Source: Paenibacillus fonticola DSM 21315 (GTDB lineage: Bacteria; Bacillota; Bacilli; Paenibacillales; Paenibacillaceae). Taken from it: DNA of 64,000 nucleotides. This document shows, one piece after another, positions 2,564 to 61,424 of this stretch. The notes beneath the pieces are model-generated. The model was not told the origin of the DNA and did no database searches. It saw only the letters and a program-made list of their open reading frames with translations. Position numbers and translations under genes: made by a program. Numbering within the stretch: the first letter of the stretch is position 1; the number at the start of each line of letters is the position of its first letter. The stretch is taken from contig NZ_KB907250.1 of the NCBI RefSeq assembly GCF_000381905.1, positions 153,488-217,487 on the forward strand, in the 5' to 3' direction.

Positions 2564-4339
2564 GTGAGAGACAGGCGAATATTGCGCAAACGCAGGCTGA
2601 TGTATGCGGCAGCCTTGCTTCTTGGCATCGCCGTCATCGTTATAGTAGGAGTGATTGGGATGAAACAGACGAACAGCGGCGGAACTGGCGGCCCATACAA
2701 CGGACATGGGGGTACATTCAAAAATCCGTTGATCGATATGGATACCCCCGATCCGAGCGTGGTATACAAAGATGGATATTACTACATGACGTTCACCCAT
2801 AACGGAACGGACGTCATGGTCATGAAATCCCGAACGATCGATTTTAAGCAGGCGGAGAAGAAGGTGGTCTGGTATCCGCCGATTGATACGATGTACTCGG
2901 CCAACCTCTGGGCTCCGGAAATTCAATATATTCGCGGTAAATGGTATATCTATTTCGCGGCGGATGACGGACAGAACGAAAATCACCGGATGTACGCGCT
3001 GGAAGCGGCCGGTGATGACCCGTTTGGCGAGTACGAGTTCAAAGGGCAAATTACGGACGAGACGAATAAGTGGGCCATCGATGGTCTGGCAATGGAGCAT
3101 GAAGGGCAGCTCTATTTCGTCTGGTCCGGCTGGGAAGGGGACGTAAACATCCAGCAGAACACCTATATTGCGCCGATGAGCGACCCTTTGACGATCAGCG
3201 GACCGAGAGTGTTGTTGTCCTCGCCGGATCAGGAATGGGAAATGGCTGGCGGACCGCCTTACATTCAGGAAGGGCAAGCGATTCTATACCGGGATGGCCG
3301 TGTATTTATCGTCTATTCCGGGGCAGGGAGCTGGACTCCGTTCTACAGCCTTGGCCTGCTGGCTCTCAAGGAGGGCGGCGATCCGCTTCAGCCGGAGGAT
3401 TGGGAGAGAGCGGCTGAGCCTCTGATGACGATGGATGAGGAGGCCGGCGTGTATGGTCCGGGGCATAATTCCTTCGTTAAATCGCCGGACGGCACGGAGG
3501 ATTGGATCGTCTACCACGGCACGACCAGTCCTGCCGACGGCTGGAACAACCGCAAAGCCCGGGCGCAGCGTGTCACTTGGAATGAGCAGGGGCTGCCGGA
3601 GTTCGGAAAGCCGCTGTCCTTGGAAACGGCGATCCCATTACCATCGGGGTCGGGTGTCTATTTGGCCAAGCATGCCAATAGAGACGGAGACCGCCTCAGC
3701 TTCGGGAAATTTGCGGCAGCCGTTCCAACGGAGATACCGCTGCTTGTTCGCTACAAAAACGAGACGGGCGCCACCCGAACGCTCGAGGTGTGGGTGAACG
3801 ACACCGCAGCGGGGTCGATACTATTGCCGGTTACTGCGCAGGATGAGACCGGTTATGCCTACGGACGCATTCGGCTAGAAGCAGGAGGCGGCGAGCTGGC
3901 TCTGCGGATGGATGAAGACAGTGCCGCGAGCGACATTCTCGGCGGAATTCAAGCGATCGAAATGACGAGATATGAGGCGGAAACGGCATCCTCTGGTCTT
4001 GAAGAGGCAATGGGCGCGGACCTGTCGGCCTCAAGCGAAGGCGTGATGAAGCTGACGAATGAGGAGGGCTCCTCAGCGGCATTTCGGTCGGTACATGTAC
4101 CTGAAGCGGGCGAATATCGCCTGATCTTCGGTGTTTCCAACCCGGGCGATGAGGAAAGAACCTTTGAACTGGAGATCAATGGAAGCAAAGGTGCAAAGCT
4201 GACTGTTCCCGCAACGGGACGCAATGTTTTTACAGAAGTTGTGTTTGAAGGAAAGCTGCAGAGAGGTGATAATGAAATTATGATCAAAGAGGCTTCGGGA
4301 GATCTGAGCTTCGATTATATGGACATTATCGCTGACTAG
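2564..4339 (+). CDS. Membrane-anchored GH43 arabinosidase/arabinofuranosidase-like enzyme with C-terminal carbohydrate-binding domain
   Basis: I place the start at GTG 2564, preceded by GAGGTGAGG; an in-frame ATG at 2534 has no ribosome site. The N-terminus is RDRRILRKRRLMYAAALLLG, a basic stretch then one hydrophobic helix with no lipobox, so a signal anchor is likely. The catalytic five-bladed propeller covers roughly residues 40-360. DTPDPSVVYKDGYYY contains the catalytic base Asp, AIDGLAMEH the pKa-modulating Asp, and GGPPYIQEGQ probably the general acid. A beta-sandwich starting MTRYEAETASSG near residue 470 and ending DYMDI resembles CBM6/CBM35 domains. GH43 enzymes of this kind usually remove or cleave alpha-L-arabinofuranosyl residues. 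The location between importer and sensor genes suggests it trims oligosaccharides at the cell surface. Confidence 0.85.
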   Translation: MRDRRILRKRRLMYAAALLLGIAVIVIVGVIGMKQTNSGGTGGPYNGHGGTFKNPLIDMDTPDPSVVYKDGYYYMTFTHNGTDVMVMKSRTIDFKQAEKKVVWYPPIDTMYSANLWAPEIQYIRGKWYIYFAADDGQNENHRMYALEAAGDDPFGEYEFKGQITDETNKWAIDGLAMEHEGQLYFVWSGWEGDVNIQQNTYIAPMSDPLTISGPRVLLSSPDQEWEMAGGPPYIQEGQAILYRDGRVFIVYSGAGSWTPFYSLGLLALKEGGDPLQPEDWERAAEPLMTMDEEAGVYGPGHNSFVKSPDGTEDWIVYHGTTSPADGWNNRKARAQRVTWNEQGLPEFGKPLSLETAIPLPSGSGVYLAKHANRDGDRLSFGKFAAAVPTEIPLLVRYKNETGATRTLEVWVNDTAAGSILLPVTAQDETGYAYGRIRLEAGGGELALRMDEDSAASDILGGIQAIEMTRYEAETASSGLEEAMGADLSASSEGVMKLTNEEGSSAAFRSVHVPEAGEYRLIFGVSNPGDEERTFELEINGSKGAKLTVPATGRNVFTEVVFEGKLQRGDNEIMIKEASGDLSFDYMDIIAD

Positions 4340-9290: not shown

Positions 9291-11081
9291 GTGACTAACA
9301 TTCAGAACAATAAATCGATTCCGCGAGAGGAATATCCAAGACCACAATTCGTTCGTGCGGATTGGCTCAATTTGAACGGGGAGTGGGAGTTTGCCTTCGA
9401 TGATGACCGAATCGGGGAGCAGGAGAAATGGTACGGGAATGACTACCCGGCTCCATATCCGCAATCGATTACAGTTCCCTTCGTATTTCAGAGCAAGCTG
9501 AGCGGCATCGGGAATCCGGAGTTCCACGATGTGGTATGGTACCGCAAAAGCTTCGATCTGCCGGAGGCGTGGAACGGAAAGCGGATCGTGCTTCATTTCG
9601 GTGCGGTCGATTACCTGGCCAAAGTATGGATTAACGGCCAACTGGCCGCTGTCCATGAAGGCGGACACACGCCGTTTCAGGCCGATATCACGGATTTGCT
9701 CGTTCCAGGAAGCCAGACGATCACGGTTCGCGCAGAAGATTTCAGCCGGGACATTACCCTGCCGCGGGGCAAGCAATACTGGCTGGAAAACTCGGCGAGT
9801 ATTTTCTATACGCGGACCACAGGAATTTGGCAGACGGTATGGCTCGAGCCGGTGGATCAGACTTATCTGAAGCGGGTGGCCATGACTCCCGATATCGACC
9901 GGAACGAAATTCAACTGCATACTTTTGTGGAAGGCGTGCAGGGCGGCGCGACAGATCTGGAGCTTGAGGTGACGGTGTCTTTTCAGGGAGAACGGATCGC
10001 TTGCGATCGCTATAAAGTACTTCGCCCAGAGGAGCACCGCAGCGTTCATCTCCACGATTTTGCCGAGCATGGACTGGGCCGCCTGTGGTCACCGGAGCAT
10101 CCGAACCTGTACGATATTTCCTTCAAGCTTGTCGGCGATGGCCGCGTGCTGGATGAGGTGGACAGTTATTTCGGGATGCGCAAGGTATCCATTGAAAATG
10201 GGCGCTTATGCCTGAACAACCGTCCGTATTATCAGCGGCTTGTACTTGACCAAGGGTATTTCGAGGACGGCATCCTTACTGCTCCGAGTGATCAGGATTT
10301 GAAGCGGGATGTGGAGCTGGCTAAAGAGATGGGCTTTAACGGCGTGCGCAAGCATCAGAAGATGGAGGATCCGCGCTTCCTGTACTGGTGTGACCGGATC
10401 GGCATGCTCGTCTGGGGAGAAGCCGCGAATGCTTATGCCTACTCCGAAAATTACGTGCGGCAGTTTACCAGCGAGTGGCAGGAGGTGATTCAGCGGGATT
10501 ACAATCACCCCTGCATCGTGACATGGGTGCCGCTGAATGAGAGCTGGGGCGTCCCGAACGTGCAGATCGATGCCAAACAGCAGCAGCACGGCCTAGCCAT
10601 GTACCATTTAACGAAATCGCTCGATCAGACGCGTCCTGTCGTATATAACGACGGATGGGAGCATATGACGACGGATTTGGTGACCATTCACGATTATGAG
10701 AGCCGCCGCGAGGTGCTGGAGGCCAGATACGAAACGGTAGAATCCACGATAGAAGCCATGCCGGCGAATCGCCGTATTTTCGTCGGCGGGGCAGCTTATG
10801 CCGGCCAGCCCATCCTCGTGACGGAGTTCGGCGGAATTGCCTTCAAGGCGAGCGAGTGGGAAGGCTGGGGGTATTCCGGTGCGGATAATGAAGAGGATTA
10901 TTTACAGCGGCTGAAGGACGTCGTCGATCCGATGTACGCCTCCCCGGTCGTACAAGGATTCTGTTATACACAGCTTACGGACGTAGAGCAGGAGATCAAC
11001 GGGCTTTTGACGTACAACAGGCAGCCTAAGGCCCCGCTGGAGCAAATTCGGCAAATTATTACGGGCAGAAAGGCGAATTGA
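9291..11081 (+). CDS. GH2 family glycosidase (beta-galactosidase/beta-glucuronidase-like)
   Basis: Cytoplasmic GH2 enzyme of 596 residues with no signal peptide; start GTG 9291 follows AGGAGGTAAAG. The jelly-roll sugar-binding domain covers about 20-190 (GEWEFAFDDD, VVWYRKSFDLP, FGAVDYLAKVWINGQ). An immunoglobulin-like domain follows, then a TIM barrel from about 300. The acid/base is Glu417 in VPLNESWGVPN and the nucleophile Glu512 in LVTEFGGIAF. The length is that of the short beta-galactosidase/beta-glucuronidase group and far below LacZ (about 1000). It is the last gene of the operon, with an intrinsic terminator about 70 bases later. It probably removes a terminal beta-galactosyl, glucuronyl or arabinopyranosyl unit from imported oligosaccharides; the exact sugar cannot be read from sequence. 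Confidence 0.9.
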   Translation: MTNIQNNKSIPREEYPRPQFVRADWLNLNGEWEFAFDDDRIGEQEKWYGNDYPAPYPQSITVPFVFQSKLSGIGNPEFHDVVWYRKSFDLPEAWNGKRIVLHFGAVDYLAKVWINGQLAAVHEGGHTPFQADITDLLVPGSQTITVRAEDFSRDITLPRGKQYWLENSASIFYTRTTGIWQTVWLEPVDQTYLKRVAMTPDIDRNEIQLHTFVEGVQGGATDLELEVTVSFQGERIACDRYKVLRPEEHRSVHLHDFAEHGLGRLWSPEHPNLYDISFKLVGDGRVLDEVDSYFGMRKVSIENGRLCLNNRPYYQRLVLDQGYFEDGILTAPSDQDLKRDVELAKEMGFNGVRKHQKMEDPRFLYWCDRIGMLVWGEAANAYAYSENYVRQFTSEWQEVIQRDYNHPCIVTWVPLNESWGVPNVQIDAKQQQHGLAMYHLTKSLDQTRPVVYNDGWEHMTTDLVTIHDYESRREVLEARYETVESTIEAMPANRRIFVGGAAYAGQPILVTEFGGIAFKASEWEGWGYSGADNEEDYLQRLKDVVDPMYASPVVQGFCYTQLTDVEQEINGLLTYNRQPKAPLEQIRQIITGRKAN

Positions 11082-17816: not shown

Positions 17817-18653
17817 TTACTTTACAGATCCGCTAGTTAACCCAGATATAAAATAACGCTGCAGGAAAGCAAATAGAATAATGATAGGAATAAAGCTGAT
17901 AATAGATCCAGAGGACAGCAATCCCCAGTTTGTGCCGTATTCCCCTACAGCTAGGTTTGTAAGACCTACATTTAGAGTTTTAAGGTCGTTTGAATTGGCG
18001 AAGATTAAAGCGATTATAAAATCATTCCATGTGGTATACGCGGAAAAAATAGCTACAGTGGCCAGCCCAGGCCATACTAAGGGTAGGAACACCCTGACAA
18101 AGGTTCGCAATTCACTAGCTCCATCAATTAATGCAGATTCTCTTATACTGGTAGGAACAGAATCAAAGGAATTTTTCATCATATAAATGGTAAATGGCAG
18201 CTGAAATGTTACATATATAATGATCAATGCAATATGTGTATTTAAGAGATTTAAGCTCTTGATTATGGAGAATAAAGGTATTAGCAACCCATGGAAAGGA
18301 ATCATCATAGCCGCTAGAATTAACATCAGCACCCCATTTTTAAAAGGAATGTCTAATTTTGAAAAACCATATCCGGCTAATGAACTAACAATAATGACAA
18401 AAAATACAGTACTGATCGTTAGTAAACCACTATTCGTAAAATAAGTGCTAAAAATGCCCTCTTGGAAAGTAAATATTGTTCTATAATTATCCAATGTTAC
18501 ATTCGCTGGAAGCCATTTTGGCGGGTATTTTGCAATCTCACCAGGCTTTTTTAACGAGGTACTAACGATCCAAACGAAGGGTAGCAAAAATAAAAACGCG
18601 ATGAAACCATTGAGGATGTAAAATTTTATTCTATTTGAACCTTTTGCATTCAC
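17817..18653 (-). CDS. CUT1 sugar ABC transporter permease, MalG type
   Basis: 278 residues from GTG 18653, preceded by AGGAGG nine bases upstream; this start also removes the overlap with the preceding permease that an upstream ATG would create. The first helix is FYILNGFIAFLFLLPF, and further helices include VIIVSSLAGYGF and MLILAAMMIPF. The ATPase-docking signature is ESALIDGASELRTF. The C-terminus ends QRYFISGLTSGSVK. It pairs with the permease at 18670-19560 and the lipoprotein at 19631-20920 as an importer whose substrate should be released or processed by the GH127 enzyme at the head of the operon. Base composition is visibly more AT-rich than the flanking amidohydrolase genes. Confidence 0.93.
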   Translation of the reverse strand: MNAKGSNRIKFYILNGFIAFLFLLPFVWIVSTSLKKPGEIAKYPPKWLPANVTLDNYRTIFTFQEGIFSTYFTNSGLLTISTVFFVIIVSSLAGYGFSKLDIPFKNGVLMLILAAMMIPFHGLLIPLFSIIKSLNLLNTHIALIIIYVTFQLPFTIYMMKNSFDSVPTSIRESALIDGASELRTFVRVFLPLVWPGLATVAIFSAYTTWNDFIIALIFANSNDLKTLNVGLTNLAVGEYGTNWGLLSSGSIISFIPIIILFAFLQRYFISGLTSGSVK

Positions 18654-18669
18654 TTTGAAGCACCTCCTG

Positions 18670-19560
18670 CTATTCAACTGGATCCTTTAGGACTTTAAAC
18701 TGAACAAAACTTAGAGCGATGAGTACAACTAACAAAATAATAGTCATAGCAGAACCATATCCTAAGTTGAAATATTTAAATGAAGTATTGTATATATGAT
18801 GAACAGCAGTAGTTGTTGTCGCAGAAGGTCCACCGTTGGTCATGATTAGAAATTGTTCAAACGCTAATACAGACCCTATTACGGAGACTACTAAAGATAA
18901 ACCGATGGATGGCAATAATAAGGGAATCGTAATATATAACGTTTGCCGCCATTTGTTAGCTCCATCGATATTCGAAGCTTCATACACTTCCTCGGATATT
19001 CCTTGAAGTCCCGCAAGCAGAATCACCATCGTAAAGCCGGCCATTTTCCAAGTGATCATAAAAGAAATCGCTGGTAGCGATGTATTGGCTTGTCCCATCC
19101 AGTTCATAGGTTCCTGTACGATGTTAAAGAGCATTAAATAATAATTAAGCACTCCATAAAGATCATTATAAATCCATAACCACATTAAACTTGAGGCAAC
19201 CATGGAAATAACCACAGGCATGAAATATATCGATCTAAAAAAGGTGACTCCAGGCAGTTGGTTATTAATAAGCAACGCTAATATAAAGGCAACTATAAGT
19301 ATGGCTGGTGTAACGAGCAACGTATATTTTAATGTAAACCACATGGTATTCCAGAAGGTGATATCTTGAAACAACCTGAAATAATTGTCTAGTCCGATAA
19401 ATAATTTATCTCCTAGGACAGGCCAATTATAAAAAGACATAGCTAAGGATTGAAACAAGGGATAAATGAAAAAAACGATGTTTAGCAACAAGGCCGGTAA
19501 TATAAATGCTAGATGACTAAATTTTAGCTTTCTATTAAAAATATATTTTTTTACCTGCAC
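18670..19560 (-). CDS. CUT1 sugar ABC transporter permease, MalF type
   Basis: 296 residues from GTG 19560, with GGAGGGG eight bases upstream; an ATG six codons earlier overlaps that ribosome site and is less likely. N-terminal helix HLAFILPALLLNIVFFIYPLF, then VGLDNYF-like GLDNYFRLF, and the docking signature EASNIDGANKWRQTL. NGGPSATTTTAVHHIY near the C-terminus is typical of MalF/UgpA-type subunits. It is encoded between the binding protein and the second permease. AT-rich codon use matches the other genes in this block. Confidence 0.94.
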   Translation of the reverse strand: MQVKKYIFNRKLKFSHLAFILPALLLNIVFFIYPLFQSLAMSFYNWPVLGDKLFIGLDNYFRLFQDITFWNTMWFTLKYTLLVTPAILIVAFILALLINNQLPGVTFFRSIYFMPVVISMVASSLMWLWIYNDLYGVLNYYLMLFNIVQEPMNWMGQANTSLPAISFMITWKMAGFTMVILLAGLQGISEEVYEASNIDGANKWRQTLYITIPLLLPSIGLSLVVSVIGSVLAFEQFLIMTNGGPSATTTTAVHHIYNTSFKYFNLGYGSAMTIILLVVLIALSFVQFKVLKDPVE

Positions 19561-19630
19561 TCGACTGTCCCCTCCCATGAAGAATGAAGGAGAGAACAGA
19601 ACTCCCCTTCATTCCTATTATTTGCTTTCT

Positions 19631-20920
19631 TTAGCGGCTTAATATTTCAATGATGTTCTTTTCAGCATTTTTAAATGCTTCTTGGGGTGAAAGTTCTCCA
19701 TTTAGGGAAAGCTGCATAAATCCAAGAACCGGCTGACTAAATATTTCGTTATATTTTAAGGAATAAGGCGTATGCCCCAATTTTAAAGACTCTGCAAACA
19801 CTTGATAATGGGGTGAGTTTTTAAAATACTTATTGTCCAGTAGATCTTCCCGCACAGGAATTGCACCATTTTTGGCAAATGTCTCAACTTGGACCTCTTC
19901 ACTCAAGGCATACTGTAAAAACTCTAGCGCTTCTTCTGAATGCTTTGATTCTGTTGGAATCGCTATCAAATCTCCTCCAGCAAAGGAAGCATGATTTTTA
20001 CCTTCATTCCGTGGAATTAAGGCAATCCCGTAGTCGATATCCGGATAATCTGTATCAAATACATTTACAATAAAGTTGCCTGTAACAAACATACTTGCCT
20101 TCCCCGAAGTAAACGCGTCCTGCGCTTGAGCCCAGCTGTAGTTTGTTACTCCTTCCGGGGTTACTTTATCCTTCTGGGTTAAATCCGTATAAAACTGCAG
20201 GGCTTCAATGGTTTCTGGAGAATTGATCTTTGCTTCTGTTCCATTTTCATTTAAAATATCTCCTCCATTTCCCCAAATATAGGGCAGAAACGTAAATGCT
20301 TGTCCTCCAACATCCGCTCCAGCGTAAACATAAGCAAACCGATCTGTTGTTGTTAATTTACGAGCGTACTCCCTTAAATCTTCCCAGGTTTCTGGCGGGG
20401 AATCAGGATCTAATCCAGCTTCTTTAAAATGTTCTTTGTTGTAGGCTAATGCAGATACTTCGCCGCTGAACGGGAGGGCATACTGCTTACCGTTATAAGC
20501 CCCCTGGGTAGCCATGGCTTGAATTAAATGCTCTTTAAAATCCAAAGAGTTATAGTAATCTGTTAAATCTTGAAACGCACCAATAGAAGCGAAATACGGA
20601 GCGTAAACCAAGTCAATCGAAATAATGTCAGGAGCTGCCCCAGAAGCCAAGGCCGTGGAAAATTGCTCTGTAAAGTTTGCATTGGGAAAAGAGGTCAGCT
20701 CGACCTTGAAGCCCCGGTTCTCAGAATTGAATTTATCCACGGCTTCTTTAACATTTGGAGCACTTGCTTCCCGCGTCCAAAGCTGCAGTATCTTTTCTTT
20801 ATTACTTCCGGAATCCTTCTTGCTCGCAGCGGTATCCGATGATGAATTACTGCTGCAGCCAACAACCAGCAACGATAGGGTAAGCATTGAAACGAATAAC
20901 CACTTCAAAGATTTGAACAT
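19631..20920 (-). CDS. Sugar ABC transporter solute-binding lipoprotein
   Basis: Family 1 binding protein of 429 residues. Signal peptide MFKSLKWLFVSMLTLS leads to lipobox LVVGC, lipidated Cys22, then a Ser/Asp/Lys-rich linker. The mature part shows LQLWTREASAPNVKEAV, ALASGAAPDIISIDLVYA, the hinge stretch LPFSGEVSALAYN, and FVTGNFIVN at the cleft. ATG has GGGGAGAAAG upstream. It should capture an arabinose-containing oligosaccharide, judging by the GH127 gene directly upstream in the same operon (33-base gap). A permease pair follows. No dedicated ATPase is encoded. Confidence 0.94.
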   Translation of the reverse strand: MFKSLKWLFVSMLTLSLLVVGCSSNSSSDTAASKKDSGSNKEKILQLWTREASAPNVKEAVDKFNSENRGFKVELTSFPNANFTEQFSTALASGAAPDIISIDLVYAPYFASIGAFQDLTDYYNSLDFKEHLIQAMATQGAYNGKQYALPFSGEVSALAYNKEHFKEAGLDPDSPPETWEDLREYARKLTTTDRFAYVYAGADVGGQAFTFLPYIWGNGGDILNENGTEAKINSPETIEALQFYTDLTQKDKVTPEGVTNYSWAQAQDAFTSGKASMFVTGNFIVNVFDTDYPDIDYGIALIPRNEGKNHASFAGGDLIAIPTESKHSEEALEFLQYALSEEVQVETFAKNGAIPVREDLLDNKYFKNSPHYQVFAESLKLGHTPYSLKYNEIFSQPVLGFMQLSLNGELSPQEAFKNAEKNIIEILSR

Positions 20921-20952
20921 TTCTTTCTCCCCTTTTTTAATTTATGAAAAAA

Positions 20953-22848
20953 CTATATGAATAGTTTTTTATCCACGATTGGAAAGTAAACGGAATACCT
21001 TTGATCCATCACCTCATATAGCGGAATAAAGCGAATGCCCTCAGGCTGATTTTTCGTTCTGTAATAACCGGGATTCCACCAGCTATGCTGTCTTTCATGG
21101 TCGGGAAGCAGTATCGATTCAGGTTCATCCAGGTTCCCGGACAACTGACGCTCCTCTGCGACTAATCCGGCCAGTACGATCGGCCCATCCAGAAAAGCAA
21201 CCGTACCAGGCTGACCTGGCAGCGTCTCTGTGGTTAACGTCTTGGGAAATTCTACGTCAATGACGGTATTCTCTTTCCAGGTTCTCTTTATTTCAATAAA
21301 TGAGGAGGGAGTAAACTTCCCTTCAATCGGCACGCCATTTATCTTCATTGTCGGAGTACCGTGTAACCACCAAGGTAAACGGAGCTTCAATCCGAACTCC
21401 AACTTATTATCACAGGAGATAGTCAGTCGATAGACAAACCGATTTGGGCGTGACGTAGGGATCGGAGGAATATCAACCCTGGTAATCGCCTCCATTCCCG
21501 AGACCGACCATTCATTTAGTGGATAAAGACCGAATTGAGCATCCTGACTAAGCTGAATTTTTACTTTTTGCTTATCATGCTCAAACTCCAATATGGAAGG
21601 AATCCATTGACATACAGCAATTCCTTCTTCGTATCTCATAAATATTTCCTCTTGATATGCAGAATTAGCTTGCATCAAGGTACCGTGACAGCACCAAAAA
21701 TCTTTAGTCGGGGTTCCCCATTTTTTCTGACTTCCGGCACCTATACCGAGGAAATAGGAGACCATTCCATCTTCTCCATTTTGGTGAGCTAGCACGCCGT
21801 TGATAAATCTTCGCTCCCAGTAGTCCGCATACTCCGCATCACCTGTCCAACGCAATAAAACATTAGCCAAGCGCATCATATTGTAATTGCAGCAGTGTTC
21901 CTGACCTACTCCTAATCGATCTGAGAGTTTACCGGGCGGGATCCATAATTCCCCATCGTCTGCTGCGCCTGTAGCTCCGTAGCCCCGATCTGTTACAGCA
22001 CATTTCCAGAACGCTTCAACTACATCTCTCCATCTACGGTCTCCCGTAACCTCCCAGGCTCTGGCGGCACCTAAGATTTCAGGTATTTGCGTATTGGCAT
22101 GTTTATTAGTCAGCACATCTTCCCCGCGAAGAAGGGCATCAAAGAAACGGCGACGGTCATAACGATATATTAATTCGCGGTGCTGCTCATGCCCTGTAAC
22201 CCCATAGAGCTGCGACCAAACCTCAAGCATTCCTCCCGTTTCCAGATCCAATAAATCATCCATTTCTTCTTGAGAGAATTGACCTGTCCATTTATAAAAC
22301 CAGGAGGCGATATTGCTCATCATATCCAAAGCCTGCTGATTTCCTAGCAATTCGTACATATCATACAAGCCCATTAATAGCTTATGAATCGTATAGTGTG
22401 GTGCCCAAACCCACTTTCCCTTAGCGATCCTGTACATGTACGATTCTGGAAAAGCGGCTAGCCATTCGCCTCCGTTCTCCACTTGGCATTTTGCTAGTTC
22501 AGCCACAATAAAATCCGCCTTAGCCTTGACTAATTGATCATTCGTTTGGGCAAAAATTTTTGCTGCAGCTGACAGCCAGTGTCCCGTAATATGGCCACGC
22601 AGTTCACAGGTGGGGGATTCCCATCCCCAGTGCCAATTTTCTGGGATATCCATATTTGCGGATGACGCTGTTGTAGTTCCACCCTGCCCGCTGTAACTCC
22701 AAAGTCCTGCTTCCAAATAAAAATTACGCAAAAGATTTTCACTCGTCAGTCTCATTACATAGCTTGTATTCAATTGGAACCGTTTTTTTAAAGCTCCCGG
22801 AGCCAATTTGACTTTATCGCAACCAAATTCGTTCATTGCCATAAGCAT
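20953..22848 (-). CDS. GH127-type beta-L-arabinofuranosidase (DUF1680 fold)
   Basis: 631 residues from ATG 22848, which has GGGTGAG upstream; earlier in-frame ATGs (to 22917) lack a ribosome site. The catalytic domain is an (alpha/alpha)6 barrel: CELRGHITGHWLSA, WAPHYTIHKLLMGL, NKHANTQIPEILGA. Zinc/cysteine chemistry of the family is conserved: QEHCCNYNMMR places Glu317 and Cys319 where HypBA1 of Bifidobacterium longum has Glu338/Cys340, and DFWCCHGT gives Cys386-Cys387 matching the nucleophile pair Cys417/Cys418. A beta-sandwich C-terminal domain follows (LKLRLPWWLHG). No signal peptide, so it acts inside the cell on imported beta-L-arabinofuranosides. First gene of the minus-strand operon with the SBP and permeases; AraC is divergent. 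Confidence 0.9.
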   Translation of the reverse strand: MLMAMNEFGCDKVKLAPGALKKRFQLNTSYVMRLTSENLLRNFYLEAGLWSYSGQGGTTTASSANMDIPENWHWGWESPTCELRGHITGHWLSAAAKIFAQTNDQLVKAKADFIVAELAKCQVENGGEWLAAFPESYMYRIAKGKWVWAPHYTIHKLLMGLYDMYELLGNQQALDMMSNIASWFYKWTGQFSQEEMDDLLDLETGGMLEVWSQLYGVTGHEQHRELIYRYDRRRFFDALLRGEDVLTNKHANTQIPEILGAARAWEVTGDRRWRDVVEAFWKCAVTDRGYGATGAADDGELWIPPGKLSDRLGVGQEHCCNYNMMRLANVLLRWTGDAEYADYWERRFINGVLAHQNGEDGMVSYFLGIGAGSQKKWGTPTKDFWCCHGTLMQANSAYQEEIFMRYEEGIAVCQWIPSILEFEHDKQKVKIQLSQDAQFGLYPLNEWSVSGMEAITRVDIPPIPTSRPNRFVYRLTISCDNKLEFGLKLRLPWWLHGTPTMKINGVPIEGKFTPSSFIEIKRTWKENTVIDVEFPKTLTTETLPGQPGTVAFLDGPIVLAGLVAEERQLSGNLDEPESILLPDHERQHSWWNPGYYRTKNQPEGIRFIPLYEVMDQRYSVYFPIVDKKLFI

Positions 22849-23001
22849 AATCTCACCCATCGATATATTTTTTTTGTATTTCATTTTCATTTTATATAGC
22901 AGTATATAAACAGACAATGCACTATATTTTTATTTACATATACTTTTTTTAGTTTTATACTCGAATAAACCTGTACTTTTTATGTAAAAGAGGTGTTTGA
23001 A

Positions 23002-23877
23002 TTGGAAACTAATATTTATTTGACGGGAGATCGTTTTCCACTAATTAGGGATATAGGCAAAAATCAAATTACCGGCATTTATACTCATCCAGATCGTATT
23101 CAGGATTTTGATGTTTTCCTGTTTGTTACCCAGGGGGAAATGCAGGTCATTGAGGAAGGAACCGAATATATCGTAAAGGAAAAGGAGCATTTATTTCTGA
23201 AGAAGGGACTGCATCACTGGGGACTGCCACGCAAAACCATGCCGGAGACGTCCTGGTATTGGATTCACTTTAATACCATGGCTGACGATCATACAACATA
23301 CAAAGAATACTCGATTTTACCTGAATTGGATTATTTCTCGCCTTCTGATTATCAATATCGATTTATGCTGCCTAAATATGGATACTGGCCGCAACATGAG
23401 ACCATTGAGCATCGCCTAAATTCATTATTGGAAGATTATTATCAAGTTAGGGAACATCGCATGACGCACATATGTATTCAATCTTATCTTTTATTCATGG
23501 ATTTACATCGAGCTTCATTGAAGCCCTTCTTGGGGAATGCTGGTGGTAGATCCGATACGATTGCGGAACGAGTTATGAGGTATTTAATGAAAAATACGGA
23601 GAGAGATTTCGATGCCCAGGCTTTAAGCAAACACTTGAATTTAAACTATAGCTACATCTCGTCCGCTTTTAAGAAGCAGACTGGCCAAAGTGTTATCGAA
23701 GCCCATACGAAGCTGAGAATAAATAAAGCTATCGAGTTGATGAAAAATAGCTCGTTGATCGTTTCTGAAATTAGTGACAAGCTAGGCTTTCCGAATCCCT
23801 ACTACTTCAGTAGGGTATTTAAAAAAGTGCTGGGAGAATCGCCGACGTCTTACATGAAACAAATTTATAAAACATAA
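23002..23877 (+). CDS. AraC-family transcriptional regulator
   Basis: 291 residues from TTG 23002, which has AAGAGGTG six bases upstream; GTG 22993 lies within that site. N-terminal cupin-like sugar-sensing domain (FLFVTQGEMQVIEEGTEY, LFLKKGLHHWGLPR). The C-terminal AraC double HTH spans about the last 100 residues (LNLNYSYISSAFKKQTGQSV, ISDKLGFPNPYYFSRVFKK, ending GESPTSYMKQ). It is divergent from the GH127-transporter operon, 153 bases away, and is its likely activator with arabinose or an arabino-oligosaccharide as ligand. Its AT content matches that operon. Confidence 0.92.
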   Translation: METNIYLTGDRFPLIRDIGKNQITGIYTHPDRIQDFDVFLFVTQGEMQVIEEGTEYIVKEKEHLFLKKGLHHWGLPRKTMPETSWYWIHFNTMADDHTTYKEYSILPELDYFSPSDYQYRFMLPKYGYWPQHETIEHRLNSLLEDYYQVREHRMTHICIQSYLLFMDLHRASLKPFLGNAGGRSDTIAERVMRYLMKNTERDFDAQALSKHLNLNYSYISSAFKKQTGQSVIEAHTKLRINKAIELMKNSSLIVSEISDKLGFPNPYYFSRVFKKVLGESPTSYMKQIYKT

Positions 23878-24066: not shown

Positions 24067-24140
24067 GAATTTCAATAAAATATGAAACAAATAAAAAAAT
24101 TAATTGACCACTAGTTCATTTTTTCGTATAATATGTAAAA
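24067..24140 (+). repeat. Second copy of the AloR-like promoter region
   Basis: Near-identical to 17538-17606. The two copies flank the AT-rich arabinoside operon in direct orientation about 6.5 kb apart. Confidence 0.8.
24104..24132 (+). promoter_or_regulatory. Sigma-A promoter of the AloR-like gene
   Basis: TTGACC at 24104-24109 and TATAAT at 24127-24132 with a 17-bp spacer. This leaves an 80-base leader before the start codon. Confidence 0.8.
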
Positions 24141-24211
24141 ATATAGGAGAATAAATAGTTAAGCTATATTTTTTGTAATAATTCGTTAATGCATAGGAAG
24201 GAGGAATCGGA

Positions 24212-25609
24212 ATGACGAATGAACCTACGATTCGTTCTATATTAGAGAAAGAACTTGAGCGCAAGGGTTACTCTTTGACCAGCTTTTCCAACCGTTCGGG
24301 GATTAATCGCGGGACACTCAGCGCCATTCTGAACGGAAACCCTCCTAAACCCATTGCCATCCGGCAGCTGGATTTAATAACGGAAGCAATGGAACTGCCG
24401 GAAGGCTACTATTATCCGTTATACGTCAACGAGTGCGTGGACTCAGTCCAGCCCAACAGACGCAGGCTGAAAGCCTTCCTGCTGCGCTGCGCGGAAATTG
24501 GCCAAACAGATTGTATCGAGAAGGTGCTGGAACGAATCGTAGATGATCTGAATAATATTCCGATGATTTTTGACATTGGTGAGGAACTCTACGAGAAAGG
24601 ACTGCGTGAGGAATCTCGCTTATTTTACAATGTCGTGATTGAGAGTGAGAAGTATCAGCATTCGGAGCGACTGGCTATCAGCCATTACCGGATTTTTCGG
24701 TTATCGTTGGGGGATGACGCAGAAGCTAATCTGATTGCGGCTACACGCTTTGAGCTTTACTTGAATCGATTGCCCGAAGGTTATCAAATGGAAGGCTTCA
24801 TGCAATTAACGAGTGTTTACCTTACCTTACAGAAGTATGATCAGGCTGAAATATATGCTGATGAATTAAGAAGACTAGCAAAAACTGTCTATGCAAATTA
24901 TGAAAGAGCATATAAGCAGTCTAGGGAGTTTTATTTTGGCGCTGAAAGAGAGCTTGTCGTATATTATGGCCAAGGATATTTGCTTAAGGGGGTTGCGTTA
25001 CAGTTTCAGAGAAGATACGAGGAAATGAAAGAGTACATAGATGGGTATGCTGACCTAAGCTGGTTTGTTGGACTAAATGATACTGGGAAGCAGGAGGTAG
25101 AGAAATTCAAGTTATTTGCTGAATTGAATATGTATAACTTGAAGGTACTACTTGGAGATAAATCCATTATCCCCGAATATATCGATAAGGTTAAAAAACA
25201 TCCCTATGAAATCTTGCCTACTTTACGTGTTATCGTTGAGGCGGCTAATATCCATGGTTTTTTTATAGACGAATTACTAGGTCAATTTGATATTGATACA
25301 GAGCTATTTAACCAGAATGGTAATTACTATAATAAAGTTGTAAGTAAGGATAGATACTTAAGGTTAAGTTACCAGTTATCGGTGTATTATTTCAGAAAAA
25401 AGGATTTTAAGGAAGGAATAGAGAAAACATTATATGCACTTAATTATGCTATTATTCTTAATAATAATAATTATTTTATGAAATTAGTACCATTATTTGA
25501 GCGATTCAGACCTTATGCTACGAATGAACAACTTATGGAGTATGGAAGTTTAATTAAGGGGGTGTTAAAGGATGCGGAAATGGATTACGGCATTAGTACT
25601 TGTTATTAG
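24212..25609 (+). CDS. AloR/RNPP-like peptide-sensing transcriptional regulator (HTH + TPR repeats)
   Basis: 465 residues from ATG 24212 with GGAAGGAGG upstream. Residues 5-65 form a Cro/XRE-type HTH: RSILEKELERKGYSLTSF, then SGINRGTLSAILNG and IRQLDLITEAM. The remaining 390 residues are helical and rich in Tyr, Leu and Glu with TPR-like repeats (LYEKGLREESRLFYNVVI, QLTSVYLTLQKYDQAEIYADEL, YFRKKDFKEGIEKTLYALN). This architecture is that of the RNPP receptors (PlcR, NprR, PrgX, AimR) and of AloR proteins of Paenibacillus. A peptide gene overlaps its 3' end, as expected for a receptor/pheromone pair. It is expected to bind the processed peptide in the cytoplasm and change DNA binding. The 3' half is much more AT-rich than the HTH-coding part. 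A decayed copy lies at 17538-17691. Confidence 0.85.
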   Translation: MTNEPTIRSILEKELERKGYSLTSFSNRSGINRGTLSAILNGNPPKPIAIRQLDLITEAMELPEGYYYPLYVNECVDSVQPNRRRLKAFLLRCAEIGQTDCIEKVLERIVDDLNNIPMIFDIGEELYEKGLREESRLFYNVVIESEKYQHSERLAISHYRIFRLSLGDDAEANLIAATRFELYLNRLPEGYQMEGFMQLTSVYLTLQKYDQAEIYADELRRLAKTVYANYERAYKQSREFYFGAERELVVYYGQGYLLKGVALQFQRRYEEMKEYIDGYADLSWFVGLNDTGKQEVEKFKLFAELNMYNLKVLLGDKSIIPEYIDKVKKHPYEILPTLRVIVEAANIHGFFIDELLGQFDIDTELFNQNGNYYNKVVSKDRYLRLSYQLSVYYFRKKDFKEGIEKTLYALNYAIILNNNNYFMKLVPLFERFRPYATNEQLMEYGSLIKGVLKDAEMDYGISTCY

Positions 25610-25685
25610 TTTGGGCTCTACTCTGCTAGGTGGAATTCAAAATCCTTCTAATCCAATGAAACCATTAGAACACGGATGGAACTAA
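25572..25685 (+). CDS. Secreted signalling pre-peptide, Alo/Phr-like
   Basis: A 37-residue gene overlapping the last 38 bases of the upstream regulator in another frame. ATG 25572 has AAGGGGGTG at ideal spacing, so translation is real and coupled. The product starts MRKWITALVLVISLGSTLL: a basic N-terminus and one hydrophobic helix, hence a Sec signal. It ends with a polar 16-residue tail IQNPSNPMKPLEHGWN, which would be exported and trimmed to a short C-terminal pheromone. Size, layout and overlap match Alo, Phr, PapR and NprX peptides. The exact mature form cannot be read from sequence. A hairpin terminator follows at 25716. Confidence 0.8.
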   Translation: MRKWITALVLVISLGSTLLGGIQNPSNPMKPLEHGWN

Positions 25686-25715
25686 TCCCCAATTTATTAT
25701 ATATTACATATCAAG

Positions 25716-25758
25716 ATGCCGACAATTGGGGTAGAATACCCGTATAGTCGGCATTTTG
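25716..25758. terminator. Convergent terminator after peptide gene and AraC gene
   Basis: ATGCCGAC (25716-25723) pairs with GTCGGCAT (25747-25754); the loop itself contains GGGTA/TACCC. TTTTGTTTT follows on the plus strand. The minus-strand AraC gene ends at 25771 and could use the same hairpin. Confidence 0.88.
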
Positions 25759-26871: not shown

Positions 26872-29166
26872 ATGAAGATGAAGACCATCGTACGGAGCAG
26901 TGCACTGCAGGATTTTCGGCTGGAGCAGGTCGTATTGACTGGGGACTATCATGTTAACGCCTTCGCGAAAGAGCTGCAATATTTGCACAGCTATGACGTA
27001 GATCGGCTGCTGGCCGGCTTCCGCGAGAACCGGGGCTTGCAGCCGAAGGCGCAGAAATATCCAGGCTGGGAAGACACCGAGATTCGCGGCCATACACTGG
27101 GCCATTTCCTGACGGCCTGCTCGCAAGCCTACGAGAATACGAAGAACCCAGCCCTGCAGCAGAAGCTGGAATATATGATGACTGAGCTGGCGGAATGTCA
27201 ATTCGAGAGCGGGTACTTGTCGGCGTTCCCCGAGGGGCTGATCGACAATATCGAGCAGCGGCAGCCCGCTTGGGTTCCCTGGTATACGATGCACAAAATC
27301 ATCGCTGGACTGATCTCTGTATATCGCGCTACCGGTTCAAGGATCGCTTACGATACGGTATTCAAGCTGGGGGACTGGGTGGCCTCGCGAACATCCCGCT
27401 GGACCGATGAGCTTCAGGCTACTGTGCTTGCCGTAGAATATGGGGGCATGAACGATTGCTTATATGATCTCTATAAAATTTCCGGAGAAAAGAGGCATCT
27501 GGACGCGGCCCATAAATTCGACGAGCTTCCGCTATTCGAAGCGATCCAGCAGGGACGGGACATACTGCGGGGCAAGCATGCCAATACGACGATTCCGAAG
27601 TTCCTCGGTGCGTTGAACCGGTATCTCGTTTTGGGCGAAAGCGAGCGCTTCTACCTGGAGGCTGCGCAGAGTTTCTGGGACATGGTGGTGTATCATCACA
27701 GCTACATTACCGGCGGCAATAGCGAAAGCGAGCACTTCGGAGAGCCGGACATTCTGAACAGCAAACGTTCCGATGTTACCTGCGAGACCTGCAACAGCTA
27801 TAACATGCTCAAGCTGACGCGCGAGCTGTTCAAGCTGACAGGCGATGTGAAATACAGCGATTTCTACGAGCGGAATTACGTGAATGCGATTTTGTCCTCG
27901 CAAAATCCAGAGACAGGAATGACGATGTATTTTCAGCCAATGGCGACCGGGTATTTCAAAATATACAGCTCTCCCTTCGAGCATTTCTGGTGCTGCACGG
28001 GCACGGGGATGGAGAGCTTCACGAAGCTGAACGACAGCATTTATTTTCATAGCGGAGACACGCTGTATGTCAATCAATATTTCAGCTCTACGCTAGATTG
28101 GGCTGAGCAAGGGATCAAACTGGTCCAGCATGCGAAACTCCCGGAGTCCGAGGAGGTTTCGTTCGCCTTGGAAATCGAGCATGGACGCAGGAAGCGGCTG
28201 GATTTGCATTTGCGGATTCCGTATTGGGTATCGGGCCAGGTTGAGGTGAAGTTGAATGGAGCTGCGGTGGAGTGGAATTCTGAGCAGCAGTATATTGTCA
28301 TCGACCGGGAGTGGGACCATGGCGACGTGCTGACGTTGACACTGCCCATGAAGGTACTCGTCTCCAGATTGCCGGACAACGAGCATGCTGTCGGCTTCCA
28401 ATACGGTCCTGTCGTATTGAGCGCAGGGCTAGGTATGGAGGATATGACGCAGGCGGCAACCGGGATCATGGTGAGTGTGCCGACCCGTAAAATGCTCGTG
28501 AAGGACTTCATTATTCCTCAGGGGATGACGCCGGAGCAGTGGCTGATCGATCTCGAGCACCATCTGGTAAGGCGGGGCGATGAGCTCGCATTCGAGCTGA
28601 GGAACACGGATGAAGACGAGCGCCTTGTATTTACGCCGCATTACAGGCAGCACCGCGAGCGGTACGGCATCTATTGGAACATCGTGGCAACGGACTCGGA
28701 CGAATTGAAGCAGCATTTGGAGCGGGGACGCCGGGAGCAGTTGATCAAGGAAGCGACCATTGACAGCGTGCAGGTCGGCAACGATCAATACGAGCTGGAG
28801 CATGGGATTAAGGGAGAGGAGACCTTCGGCGGCGCATGGGACGGCCTCAACGGACGGCTGGCGCATGCGGGCGGCTGGTTCAGCTATAAGCTTGGCGTTG
28901 ATCCCGAAGCTGACAATTTGCTCCAGGTTACGTATTTCTCCATCAACCATAACCGGCTCATGAATATTTACGCTAACGGCACGCTGCTGGCCATTGAGAG
29001 AACGCCGCTAGAGCGCAAACGTGAATTTTTCACGAAACAGTATCCGATCCCTTCAGAGCTTCTTCTTCAGGGGCAGCGGGAAATTGAATTCAAGTTCGTG
29101 CCGGAAGGCGACTTAAACGGAATTTACGGCGTGCTTCGGACGATGAGACCGATCGAAGATGAATAG
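26872..29166 (+). CDS. GH127/GH146-type beta-L-arabinofuranosidase (DUF1680), long form
   Basis: 764 residues from ATG 26872 (GAGGG upstream), no signal peptide. The (alpha/alpha)6 catalytic domain shows EIRGHTLGHFLTA, WVPWYTMHKIIAGL and GKHANTTIPKFLGA. The cysteine glycosidase residues are present: CETCNSYNML gives Glu305 and Cys307, and HFWCCTGTGMES gives Cys374-Cys375, the first being the expected nucleophile. After the usual beta-sandwich (LHLRIPYWVSG) there is an extra C-terminal module of about 150 residues (TFGGAWDGLNGRLAHAGGWFSY) absent from the 20953 enzyme; this resembles the C-terminal domain of larger DUF1680 proteins. It removes beta-L-arabinofuranosyl residues, perhaps from a different linkage than the other GH127. 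Divergent AraC at 25771 is the likely regulator. Confidence 0.9.
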   Translation: MKMKTIVRSSALQDFRLEQVVLTGDYHVNAFAKELQYLHSYDVDRLLAGFRENRGLQPKAQKYPGWEDTEIRGHTLGHFLTACSQAYENTKNPALQQKLEYMMTELAECQFESGYLSAFPEGLIDNIEQRQPAWVPWYTMHKIIAGLISVYRATGSRIAYDTVFKLGDWVASRTSRWTDELQATVLAVEYGGMNDCLYDLYKISGEKRHLDAAHKFDELPLFEAIQQGRDILRGKHANTTIPKFLGALNRYLVLGESERFYLEAAQSFWDMVVYHHSYITGGNSESEHFGEPDILNSKRSDVTCETCNSYNMLKLTRELFKLTGDVKYSDFYERNYVNAILSSQNPETGMTMYFQPMATGYFKIYSSPFEHFWCCTGTGMESFTKLNDSIYFHSGDTLYVNQYFSSTLDWAEQGIKLVQHAKLPESEEVSFALEIEHGRRKRLDLHLRIPYWVSGQVEVKLNGAAVEWNSEQQYIVIDREWDHGDVLTLTLPMKVLVSRLPDNEHAVGFQYGPVVLSAGLGMEDMTQAATGIMVSVPTRKMLVKDFIIPQGMTPEQWLIDLEHHLVRRGDELAFELRNTDEDERLVFTPHYRQHRERYGIYWNIVATDSDELKQHLERGRREQLIKEATIDSVQVGNDQYELEHGIKGEETFGGAWDGLNGRLAHAGGWFSYKLGVDPEADNLLQVTYFSINHNRLMNIYANGTLLAIERTPLERKREFFTKQYPIPSELLLQGQREIEFKFVPEGDLNGIYGVLRTMRPIEDE

Positions 29167-29993: not shown

Positions 29994-31490
29994 ATGGCAA
30001 ACCGGGCAATTCTTAACGTCGACCTCCGTAGAGGCACTATTAACCGCAATATTTATGGTCATTTCTCCGAGCATTTGGGTCGCTGCATTTACGAAGGGAT
30101 TTGGGTCGGCGAGGATTCCCCGATTCCGAATACGAACGGAATTAGAAACGATGTCGTGCAAGCGCTAAAGCAGATTAACATTCCCGTGCTCCGCTGGCCG
30201 GGCGGCTGTTTTGCCGATGAATATCATTGGAAGGATGGAATCGGCCCGCGGGAAGAACGCAAAAGAATGATCAATACGCACTGGGGCGGTGTGGTTGAGA
30301 ATAACCATTTCGGCACGCATGAGTTCATGATGCTGTGCGATATGCTCGGATGTGAGCCTTATATCAATGGAAATGTGGGTAGCGGTACTGTCCAGGAGAT
30401 GTCCGAATGGGTGGAGTATTTGACCTTTGGCGGAGTGTCTCCGATGTCCGAGCTGCGTCAGGCCAACGGACAACAGGAGCCTTGGAAGGTAACCTACTTC
30501 GGCGTCGGCAACGAGAACTGGGGCTGCGGCGGAAACATGCGCCCTGAATACTATGCGGATCTATATCGCCGTTACCAGACGTACGTGCGTAACTATGACG
30601 ATAATAAAATCCATCGTATCGCCTGCGGGCCAAACGTAGACGATTATAACTGGATGGAAGTTCTGATGCGGGAAGCTTCCCGGTTCATGGACTCTATAAC
30701 ATTGCACTATTATACGGTTCCAGGCGACACATGGGAGGATAAAGGACCAGCTACTGGCTTTGAGACGAGCGAGTGGTTCACGACACTGGAGAAGGCGCTG
30801 CGGATGGATGAACTCATTACGAAGCATAGCGTCATTATGGATAAATACGATCCTGAGAAGCGCGTAGGCCTGATCGTCGATGAATGGGGAACCTGGTACA
30901 ACGTTGAGCCGGGCACGAATCCTGGTTTCCTGTATCAGCAAAATTCGATTCGCGATGCATTGGTCGCCGGTCTGACGTTCAATATTTTCCACAAACATAA
31001 CGAACGGGTTCGCATGGCGAATATCGCTCAGACGGTGAATGTGCTCCAATCCGTCATTTTGACCGAAGGGGAAAAAATGGTGCTTACACCTACATATCAT
31101 GTGTTTGATATGTTCAAGGTTCACCAGGATGCCGAACGGATCGATCTGGAGGTGGACGGCGGAACGTACAGCTACAACGGACGGGAGATTCCGGCCGTGA
31201 CCGGCTCGGCTTCAATCAATGCCGACGGAGTGGTTCATATCAGCCTCTGTAACACGAACCATGCCGAGAAGGCGGTTGTTCCGGTAGATGTACGCGGCTG
31301 GGGCGGGCAATCCTTTGAGGTAACGGGAACGGTACTGGCGGGGGATACGATTGACGCTCACAATACGTTCGATGCCCCGGATACGGTAGCACCGCAGGCA
31401 TTCCATAGCTTTACGGTTGAGGGCGGAGTGGTGACAGCCGAGCTGCCTCCGATGTCCGTTGCCGTGCTGGCATTGACTCCTAAGGCTTAA
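29994..31490 (+). CDS. abfA: Alpha-L-arabinofuranosidase, GH51
   Basis: 498 residues, cytoplasmic, start ATG 29994 after AAAGGCGG. Family signatures: [17 protein letters not shown] at the N-terminus, [26 protein letters not shown] with acid/base Glu174 and [14 protein letters not shown] with nucleophile Glu297. These positions nearly coincide with Glu175 and Glu294 of the Geobacillus stearothermophilus enzyme. TIM barrel to about residue 380, then a beta-sandwich ([19 protein letters not shown]). It hydrolyses terminal alpha-L-arabinofuranosyl groups from arabinan and arabinoxylan oligosaccharides imported by the surrounding transporters. A small Cys-rich gene follows after five bases. Confidence 0.96.
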
Positions 31491-58558: not shown

Positions 58559-60052
58559 ATGAATAAAACCATCATATATTCAGCTCCAGAGGGAGCCGTT
58601 GGTTCGAAGGATTATCGCGTTCGTGTGCGGGCTAAGGATGGAGATTGGCAGGAGCTGTTTCTTTATGAGGTAAAAGTGGACATGCATCACGTTCGCCAGG
58701 CATCGATGGCTTATTTTGATCGCGAAGGCATCGTTGAAGTCGAGATTGAATGTTTGTTTGCCAAAATTAATTCCGTGGTCATTCGTCCGCTCTCTACGCA
58801 AATAAGGGCAGGCCATGAGGGCGGGATCCTCCGTTTTGTGATCGATCGGCCCGTGAAATTATCGGTGGAAATCAATGGCGAGCGGTTCCGCAACCTGCAT
58901 CTGTTTGCTGGAGAACCGGAACAGGACGCTCCCCAGCCGGACGATCCCGGCGTAGTCGTATTAGAGCGGCCGGGAAAAACGGCCATTCATCGTGCCGCGG
59001 ATATTTTGAGATTGCTTAAGACGCCGCTAGACAGCTCGGGGCAGGAGCCAGATACCCTATATTTTGCTCCAGGGCTGCATTATATCGAAGAGACGATACT
59101 ACGGATTCCGTCCGGGAAAACGGTCTATATTGCAGGCGGTGCTATCGTTGTGGGCTCGCTGGTTTGCGAACATGTACAGGATGTAACTATTAAAGGAAGA
59201 GGCGTTCTGTATTTATCCGAGTATCATAGATACTCTGCCTTCCGCGGCATCCGCATCGGGTTCTCGCACAATATCGAGGTTGAAGGATTAATTCTCATAG
59301 ACCCTCCTCACTACAGTATTTATATCGGGAAGTCGAGCCAGATCCGGATCCGAAATTTTAAATCATTCAGCACAAGAGGCTGGTCGGATGGCATCGACAT
59401 GATGGCCAGTTCGGATATTGAGATCGATGATGTGTTCCTTCGTACCTCGGATGATTGTATTGCCATCTACGGAACCCGCTGGGATTATCGTGGAGGCACA
59501 AGCCGCGTAAAGGTCCGCAATTCAGTATTATGGGCTGATGTCGCGCACCCGTTAATGATTGGCACACATGGCGATTACAATAAGGACGGGGATACGATCG
59601 AAGATATCGTGTTCGAAAATTTGGATATTCTTGAACACCACGAGCCTCAAGAGAACTATTGGGGAGCGATGGCGATCAATGCGGGCGATAAGAATACTGT
59701 CCGCAACGTTCGATATGATGATATTCGCGTGGAGCCTTTTGAATTGGGACAATTGATCGATATTCGCGTGGTGCATAATCCCGATTATAACCCTGCGCCG
59801 GGCACACGCATTGAGAATATTACATTTCGCAATGTCAGCTACACAGGGGATAACGCCAAGCCGAACCGGATTTACGGATTCGATCAAGACAGAGTTGTCA
59901 TGGAGTCACATTCATTCGGTTACAAATCAACGGGCGGACGATACTTCAGGCGGAAGAGGAGCATTTTCATATCAATGAGCATGCTCGAAACATTAAGTTT
60001 TTGGCTGAAGGATGATATTAGAAAATCAAGGGGATGTCCAATAAGCCCCTAA
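58559..60052 (+). CDS. GH28-like polygalacturonase / beta-helix glycosidase with frameshifted 3' end
   Basis: 497 residues as read, no signal peptide, start after TTGGGGG. An N-terminal beta-domain of about 120 residues precedes a right-handed parallel beta-helix (VYIAGGAIVVGSLVCEHVQD, VTIKGRGVLYLSEY). The catalytic Asp pattern of GH28-type enzymes appears as GWSDGIDMM and RTSDDCIAIYG. The last 50 residues after GFDQDRVV are abnormal (basic, ending SRGCPISP, inside a repeat). From about base 59902 another frame continues naturally: GVTFIRLQINGRTILQ, then HFHINEHARNIKFLAEG and TGA at 60013-60015. One missing G in what should read ATGGGAGTC explains this. The intact protein would have about 485 residues. 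It probably trims galacturonides imported by the adjacent transporter, if the lesion is a sequencing error or tolerated. Confidence 0.82.
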   Translation: MNKTIIYSAPEGAVGSKDYRVRVRAKDGDWQELFLYEVKVDMHHVRQASMAYFDREGIVEVEIECLFAKINSVVIRPLSTQIRAGHEGGILRFVIDRPVKLSVEINGERFRNLHLFAGEPEQDAPQPDDPGVVVLERPGKTAIHRAADILRLLKTPLDSSGQEPDTLYFAPGLHYIEETILRIPSGKTVYIAGGAIVVGSLVCEHVQDVTIKGRGVLYLSEYHRYSAFRGIRIGFSHNIEVEGLILIDPPHYSIYIGKSSQIRIRNFKSFSTRGWSDGIDMMASSDIEIDDVFLRTSDDCIAIYGTRWDYRGGTSRVKVRNSVLWADVAHPLMIGTHGDYNKDGDTIEDIVFENLDILEHHEPQENYWGAMAINAGDKNTVRNVRYDDIRVEPFELGQLIDIRVVHNPDYNPAPGTRIENITFRNVSYTGDNAKPNRIYGFDQDRVVMESHSFGYKSTGGRYFRRKRSIFISMSMLETLSFWLKDDIRKSRGCPISP

Positions 60053-60652: not shown

Positions 60653-61405
60653 TTATCTGGCCATCCAGCCGCCGTCTACGCAGAGAACGTGTCCATTCAA
60701 GTAATCGGATGCCGAAGATGCCAGGAACACTGCTGGGCCTTTCAGATCTTCTGGTGTTCCCCAGCGGGCGGCAGGAATCCGATCCGTGATTGATGCGAAA
60801 CGATTCTCGTCTGCACGGATTTGCGCCGTGTTATCCGTCGCCATGTAGCCGGGAGCAATTCCGTTGATTTGCAGCCCGCTGTTGGCCCACTCGTTGGCAA
60901 ATGCTTTAGTTAGCCCGGCTACACCGTGCTTACTGGCTGTATAGCCCGGTACGTTAATTCCGCCTTGGTAGGAGAGCATGGAGCAAATGTTAATGATTTT
61001 ACCGCTTCCTCTTTCCAGCATATGACGGCCTGCGATTTGGGACAGCAGGAATACCGTGTTCAGGTTCAGGTTAATGACATCGAACCAATCCTTCTCACTG
61101 TGGTCTTTGGCTGGCGTTCGGCGAATAATGCCGGCATTATTAACGAGAATGTCAATGTGGCCCGTAAGTTTAAGTGCTTCATCAAAGGTCTCCTGCAGCT
61201 TGCTGTGATCACTCAAGTCGACTTCGATGGCTGAAGCTTTTCTGCCCAAGCTCTCGATTTGCTTTACTGTCTCGTGACTGGAGCTTACGGAGGCGCAGAC
61301 CACATCTGCTCCTGCCTCGGCGAAGCCGATGGCGATGCCTTGACCCAATCCGCCGGTAGTTCCTGTCACTAGAGCCGTTTTGCCTGTTAAATCGAACAAT
61401 TTCAT
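60653..61405 (-). CDS. kduD: 2-dehydro-3-deoxy-D-gluconate 5-dehydrogenase (KduD)
   Basis: 250 residues from ATG 61405 with AAGGAGAG upstream; a longer frame to 61507 would run into the regulator gene. Short-chain dehydrogenase: cofactor loop GKTALVTGTTGGLGQGIA, NNAGIIRR (NNAG), catalytic Ser in ICSMLSYQGG and YTASK (Tyr and Lys), then GIAPGYMATDNT and YLNGHVLCVDGGWMAR, which is the KduD C-terminal signature. It reduces the diketo product of KduI to 2-keto-3-deoxygluconate using NADH in unsaturated-uronate breakdown. Third gene after kduI and a DeoR regulator. KdgK and KdgA for the following steps are not in the window. Confidence 0.95.
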   Translation of the reverse strand: MKLFDLTGKTALVTGTTGGLGQGIAIGFAEAGADVVCASVSSSHETVKQIESLGRKASAIEVDLSDHSKLQETFDEALKLTGHIDILVNNAGIIRRTPAKDHSEKDWFDVINLNLNTVFLLSQIAGRHMLERGSGKIINICSMLSYQGGINVPGYTASKHGVAGLTKAFANEWANSGLQINGIAPGYMATDNTAQIRADENRFASITDRIPAARWGTPEDLKGPAVFLASSASDYLNGHVLCVDGGWMAR

Positions 61406-61424
61406 CGGTTGGACTCTCCTTTTA

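Follow-up and report, generated by a model that had tools for sequence, protein, structure and literature searches.

A conserved gene pair in Paenibacillus fonticola DSM 21315 that very likely belongs to the AloR-AloP family of receptor-peptide systems

In the AimR-AimP (arbitrium), PlcR-PapR and NprR-NprX systems, an HTH-TPR transcription regulator is paired with its own exported C-terminal peptide. The Rap proteins of Bacillus have no HTH domain, and their targets are response regulators. For AloR-AloP, the published account describes 16 loci in P. polymyxa ATCC 842 and relatives throughout the Paenibacillaceae (Voichek et al. 2020, PMC7425212). Fragments of nine AloP peptides were detected in the medium, and AloP13, with a predicted mature form of SHGRGG, was shown to act via AloR13 on a downstream spo0E-like gene (PMC7425212). 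The methods of that paper already include a search for aloP frames that partly overlap the 3' end of aloR, so that an overlapping aloP does not amount to a novel layout.

We analyzed a stretch of 64,000 nucleotides of the P. fonticola genome, referred to here as the window, whose relevant features are listed in Table 1. The sequence-only reading had described an HTH and TPR-type gene overlapped over 38 bases by a 37-codon gene with a Sec signal and a 16-residue polar tail, and both open reading frames were located as it stated. It had also called the ribosome site of the small gene near-ideal; a site is present in front of the ATG, and is good rather than ideal. Compared with what is published of Alo13 (PMC7425212), the window likewise contains a homologous HTH and TPR receptor, and its AloP shares the hydrophobic N-terminus and an HG-type C-terminal hexapeptide region. 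As is typical of AloR-AloP loci, the short peptide gene (32–50 aa in PMC7425212, 37 codons here) lies directly after aloR or overlaps it. The layout and inferred mode of action also resemble those of AimR-AimP, PlcR-PapR and NprR-NprX, a parallel drawn partly in the introduction of PMC7425212, and the predicted HTH domain of the receptor sets it apart from Rap-Phr of Bacillus. Two differences from Alo13, as far as it is described there, are evident. The tail is HGWN instead of HGRGG, and no Spo0E-like gene follows aloP, the next features being a hairpin and a convergent AraC-type regulator gene beside arabinofuranosidase genes. A Spo0E-like gene occurs at some AloR-AloP loci and does not define the family.

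Table 1. Positions of the aloR-aloP features and of neighboring glycan-related genes in the window.
Feature	Position	Strand	Remarks
GH127 gene	20953-22917
Sigma-A-type promoter of aloR	24104-24132	+	TTGACC-17-TATAAT; 11/12 consensus matches
Conserved element over -10 box and start region	24122-24149	+	TTTCGTATAATATGTAAAAATATAGGAG; candidate autoregulatory site
aloR-like receptor gene	24212-25609	+	465 aa; N-terminal HTH (predicted), C-terminal TPR-type superhelix
Ribosome-binding site of aloP, within aloR	25556-25564	+	AAGGGGGTG; 7 bases before ATG
aloP-like pro-peptide gene	25572-25685	+	37 codons, product MRKWITALVLVISLGSTLLGGIQNPSNPMKPLEHGWN; overlaps aloR by its first 38 bases
Codons of EHGWN, predicted mature signal (EHGWN, or LEHGWN with the preceding Leu)	25668-25682	+	Aligned with ortholog [DET][HN]GxGx; compared with AloP13 SHGRGG
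Terminator-like hairpin, T-rich 3' side	25712-25758	+	TTTTGTTTT; between aloP and convergent AraC-type gene
GH127 gene	26872-29166
alpha-L-arabinofuranosidase gene	29994-31490		Presumably GH51
GH28 gene	58559-60052
KduD, DeoR-type regulator and KduI genes	60653-63065

Judged by sequence, the N-terminal HTH domain of the window AloR is a weak call: HTH_26 scored 19.9 bits (E 0.0009), under the Pfam curated cut-off of 22, and TPR_8 scored 17.8 bits, under its cut-off of 25.7. The AlphaFold model, at a mean pLDDT of 88, consists of helices throughout: an HTH-like start, in which residues 7-75 form five helices, leads into a superhelix. Like AloR proteins, the receptor has a TPR or TPR-like C-terminal domain. 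When the model was compared with the PDB by Foldseek, the top matches were general TPR proteins (LGN), with RapF at rank 30 (E 0.008), and a sequence search of the PDB gave a single match, weak and irrelevant.

AloR-like genes (E<=1e-20) were found in all 40 genomes of the genus that were searched, including that of P. fonticola. The window receptor is 46% identical, over nearly its full length, to a receptor of P. brasilensis (L053), which we take by inference to be the Alo13 ortholog because its peptide ends SHGRGG and a Spo0E-like gene comes next (Pfam, 48.7 bits against 23); the link between the window AloR and AloR13 is drawn through this protein. A FastTree tree of 79 AloR-like proteins (midpoint root, identical sequences merged, grouping given without support values) placed the window receptor and 13 orthologs in one group inside the family. 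The alignment scan of genome contigs for relatives found 23 loci, and the single-sequence scan of the contigs found none. In a wider search, close orthologs (E<=1e-130) were present in 10 of 118 family genomes, P. fonticola included, and in 2 of 19 genera; four further homologues from this search, at 47-48% identity, each had a peptide frame. The family homology and the conserved small frame, considered below, support the proposal of an AloR-like receptor with an overlapping pheromone gene. The pair is therefore very likely a further, conserved member of the published AloR-AloP family and, judged by that conservation, very likely functional.

Six AloR genes are present in the genome of P. fonticola, and five of them, the window gene included, have a candidate peptide (L006 has none). 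A second AloR-like gene of this genome (L002, contig C6:58418-59770) shows an Alo13-type arrangement: its peptide ends AHGVGH, and a Spo0E-like gene (38.1 bits against 23) comes after it.

We consider it highly probable that aloR and aloP form an AloR-AloP (RRNPP-type) quorum-sensing pair that is self-contained. By analogy with AloP13 and RRNPP systems, both genes would be transcribed together from the promoter at 24104, and translation of aloP would begin inside the 3' end of aloR. The product, a pro-peptide of 37 aa, would then be exported via its hydrophobic N-terminus, trimmed outside the cell to a C-terminal signal of five or six residues (EHGWN or LEHGWN), and returned through an oligopeptide permease to sit in the TPR groove of AloR, altering the action of AloR at DNA. 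The first target would most likely be AloR's own conserved promoter. The N-terminus of AloP has a best 10-residue mean hydropathy of 2.9, hydrophobicity being the basis on which the export signal is predicted, and its C-terminal tail is polar; the genome encodes 10 SBP_bac_5 (oligopeptide-permease-type) binding proteins. The only Pfam match of AloP, a KxYKxGKxW signal, was rejected at 14.6 bits against a cut-off of 23.6. The locus adds a well-conserved pair to the Alo systems, and its predicted signal, EHGWN or LEHGWN, is suited to the published Bacillus subtilis reporter method.

The block containing the aloR promoter is conserved in alignments of six and of nine loci, one from each of the two clades into which the window and its 14 orthologs fall: five orthologs at 75-77% receptor identity (L007-L011), which together with the window we call the 76% clade, and nine at 55-60% (L012-L020), the 60% clade. 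For promoter-like sites in general, the density there is that of chance, with 13 sites against 12.4 expected. A 26-base core of the element upstream of aloR is matched at 22-26 bases in the window and all 14 orthologs. When up to three mismatches were allowed, the extended element occurred once in the 6.3-Mb genome (reversed-pattern control, 0), with no second near-identical copy at this threshold, which a more degenerate operator would escape. The element may be aloR's own operator. A palindromic operator, ATATTTT/AAAATAT around the -10 box, had been seen by eye and was dropped, its left arm being broken in several sequences of the 60% clade. On the other side of the pair, the hairpin after the window aloP has a folding energy of -25.7 kcal/mol (z -5.1 against 200 shuffles), although a simple terminator scan with a loop limit of 8 does not list it. 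Hairpins follow aloP in all 15 loci, with energies of -16.4 to -34.9 kcal/mol, the shuffle control applying to the window. Bounded by a conserved promoter block before aloR and a hairpin after aloP, the two genes seem to make up a transcription unit of their own.

The genes around aloRP raise the question of what the pair controls. One alternative is that it constitutes a quorum-sensing switch for the use of plant-cell-wall sugars, in which AloR directly controls the adjacent arabinofuranosidase or pectin genes. Consistent with this, aloRP is followed in the window and in all five close orthologs by a convergent AraC-type gene and by GH127 and arabinofuranosidase genes. Six of the nine 60%-clade loci have a KDG-kinase-like gene downstream and in the same orientation, in L064 with another ORF in between, the family call having been made for L065, at 189.7 bits against a cut-off of 400. 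Of the 12 genomes checked out of 15 (P. fonticola, the five close ones and six of the nine distant ones), 11 carry the pectin gene kduI on the opposite strand at 4-46 kb downstream; in the twelfth it is on another contig. Neighbors nevertheless differ between relatives. The KDG-kinase-like gene was not seen downstream in three of the nine loci of the 60% clade, where other genes are found, and an RNase J gene directly precedes aloR in eight of the nine, with one extra ORF between them in L067. In four of the five close orthologs an amidohydrolase gene directly precedes aloR, while in the window a block at 17817-23877 (sugar ABC transporter, GH127, AraC-type regulator) stands between these two genes; this block was thus gained in the window or lost elsewhere, and L061 retains a piece of its AraC gene. 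The neighborhood is therefore old, but its contents vary between relatives. Furthermore, the hairpin closes the aloRP unit, the glycan genes adjoin AraC- or DeoR-type regulator genes, and the promoter element is single-copy within the mismatch limit given above. The earlier suggestion that population density gates pectin or arabinan use is consequently not supported in the form in which it was made, and we regard the direct switch as unlikely. Density control of pectin or arabinan use by AloR-AloP is suggested as a lead by the neighboring genes; direct control of these glycan operons by AloR is possible but unsupported, given the hairpin, the adjacent regulators and the single promoter element. 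If the output did prove to be pectin or arabinan use, the pair would represent a density-controlled carbohydrate system in plant-associated Paenibacillus. Among the papers listed by a keyword search of the literature, none joined Alo with pectin, a result that does not prove absence.

A broader evolutionary scenario can be drawn from the same neighborhood, although we hold it to be decidedly unlikely. It proposes that an Alo branch, in an old neighborhood with the RNase J1 gene on one side and a region for pectin catabolism on the other, became a density switch for plant-cell-wall sugar use, replacing the sporulation (Spo0E) output of Alo13. The signals of the window branch would have split into five variants in six genomes (HGWN, HGIGY, HGGGF, HGAGT, HGGGY), and the sister branch would have kept NGVGG (9/9).

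For the quorum-sensing pair itself, the peptide tail is the part from which the signal is predicted. All 14 orthologous peptides end [DET][HN]GxGx, resembling the proven signal SHGRGG, and the window peptide ends LEHGWN. The window tail had appeared to be locus-specific but is not, since it closes with a variant of the [HN]GxGx motif of the family. Within the 76% clade the tails are LEHGIGY, FDHGGGF, FEHGAGT, LEHGGGY (twice) and, in the window, LEHGWN, giving five different tails in six loci; the 60% clade has ENGVGG in eight loci and TNGVGG in one, with NGVGG common to all nine. One clade with a single shared signal and a sister clade with several amount to a natural experiment. It is also conceivable that the window signal has decayed or been orphaned, AloR now answering other AloP peptides of the same cell while the window aloP loses its function. 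Among the 15 orthologous loci the window peptide is the only one that is one codon shorter at its end and has no GxGx, and four paralogous HG-tailed peptides are encoded in the same genome, AHGVGH and IHGLGG being among the paralogous tails. Against such decay, the frame, start, ribosome site and EHG of the window gene are all intact, and the five different tails in the 76% clade are what would be expected of diverging pherotypes. We consider decay quite improbable.

Across the family, AloR-like genes were scored by one rule, which was fixed after peptides had been seen and so was not blind, and which misses at least one visible peptide (L002). By this rule 46 of 84 AloR-like genes have a candidate peptide; 45 of the 46 carry an [HN]G tail and 43 overlap aloR. 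Applied to 282 other ORFs of 150 aa or longer, all called mechanically, the same rule gave a candidate in 5 and an [HN]G tail in none. For the remaining 38 of the 84 AloR-like genes it yielded no candidate, so it is common for such a receptor to have no detectable peptide. Unannotated aloP genes can be located with the help of the family motif [HN]GxGx. In two AloP-like pro-peptides, L058 (about 9358-9516) and L075 (about 2852-3010), SNGSGG is present twice; the doubling fits a hexapeptide as the signal unit, and suggests that in these cases the signal is released twice from a single precursor. Two consecutive AloP-like frames follow a single aloR in L045 (near 9364 and 9506) and L074 (near 2861 and 3004), with the ends LEHGIGIKK and TTLEHGMG. 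L045, L050 and L052 each hold several AloR-like genes, for many of which the rule gave no candidate peptide.

Conservation of the small frame at homologous loci had been put forward as a check on the pheromone gene, and the outcome was favorable. The frame is present in all 14 orthologous loci besides the window, at an identical start position and with 37-38 codons, and it shows a coding-type codon pattern. In 11 of the 14 orthologs the frame opens 38 bases before aloR ends; in the other three (L009, L010, L011) this distance is 8 bases. The ribosome site is GGAGGTG in 8 of the 14. In the part beyond aloR, peptide-frame differences at the first, second and third codon positions numbered 77/56/156 in the 76% clade (pN/pS 0.38; five of six loci used, one near-identical locus omitted) and 160/136/333 in the 60% clade (pN/pS 0.45; eight of nine loci, L020 omitted). 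Within the aloR overlap, pN/pS of the peptide frame was 0.52 and 0.44, respectively. The final NGVGG codons vary only synonymously across all nine loci of the 60% clade. That the small frame is a mere by-product of a conserved aloR 3' end, and no gene, is hardly credible: the 38-base overlap with coding sequence would itself help to conserve the start region, and seven of the 14 orthologs begin the frame with GTG or TTG (the other seven with ATG), but about 25 codons beyond aloR vary at the third position of the peptide frame and close with a conserved motif, candidates are rare among the control ORFs (5/282), and the peptide is kept where the aloR tail is cut. Such cutting is seen in L009, L010 and L011, in which a TAA in the receptor frame removes the last ten aloR codons and the overlapping peptide frame is open and conserved; these ten codons of the receptor therefore look dispensable.
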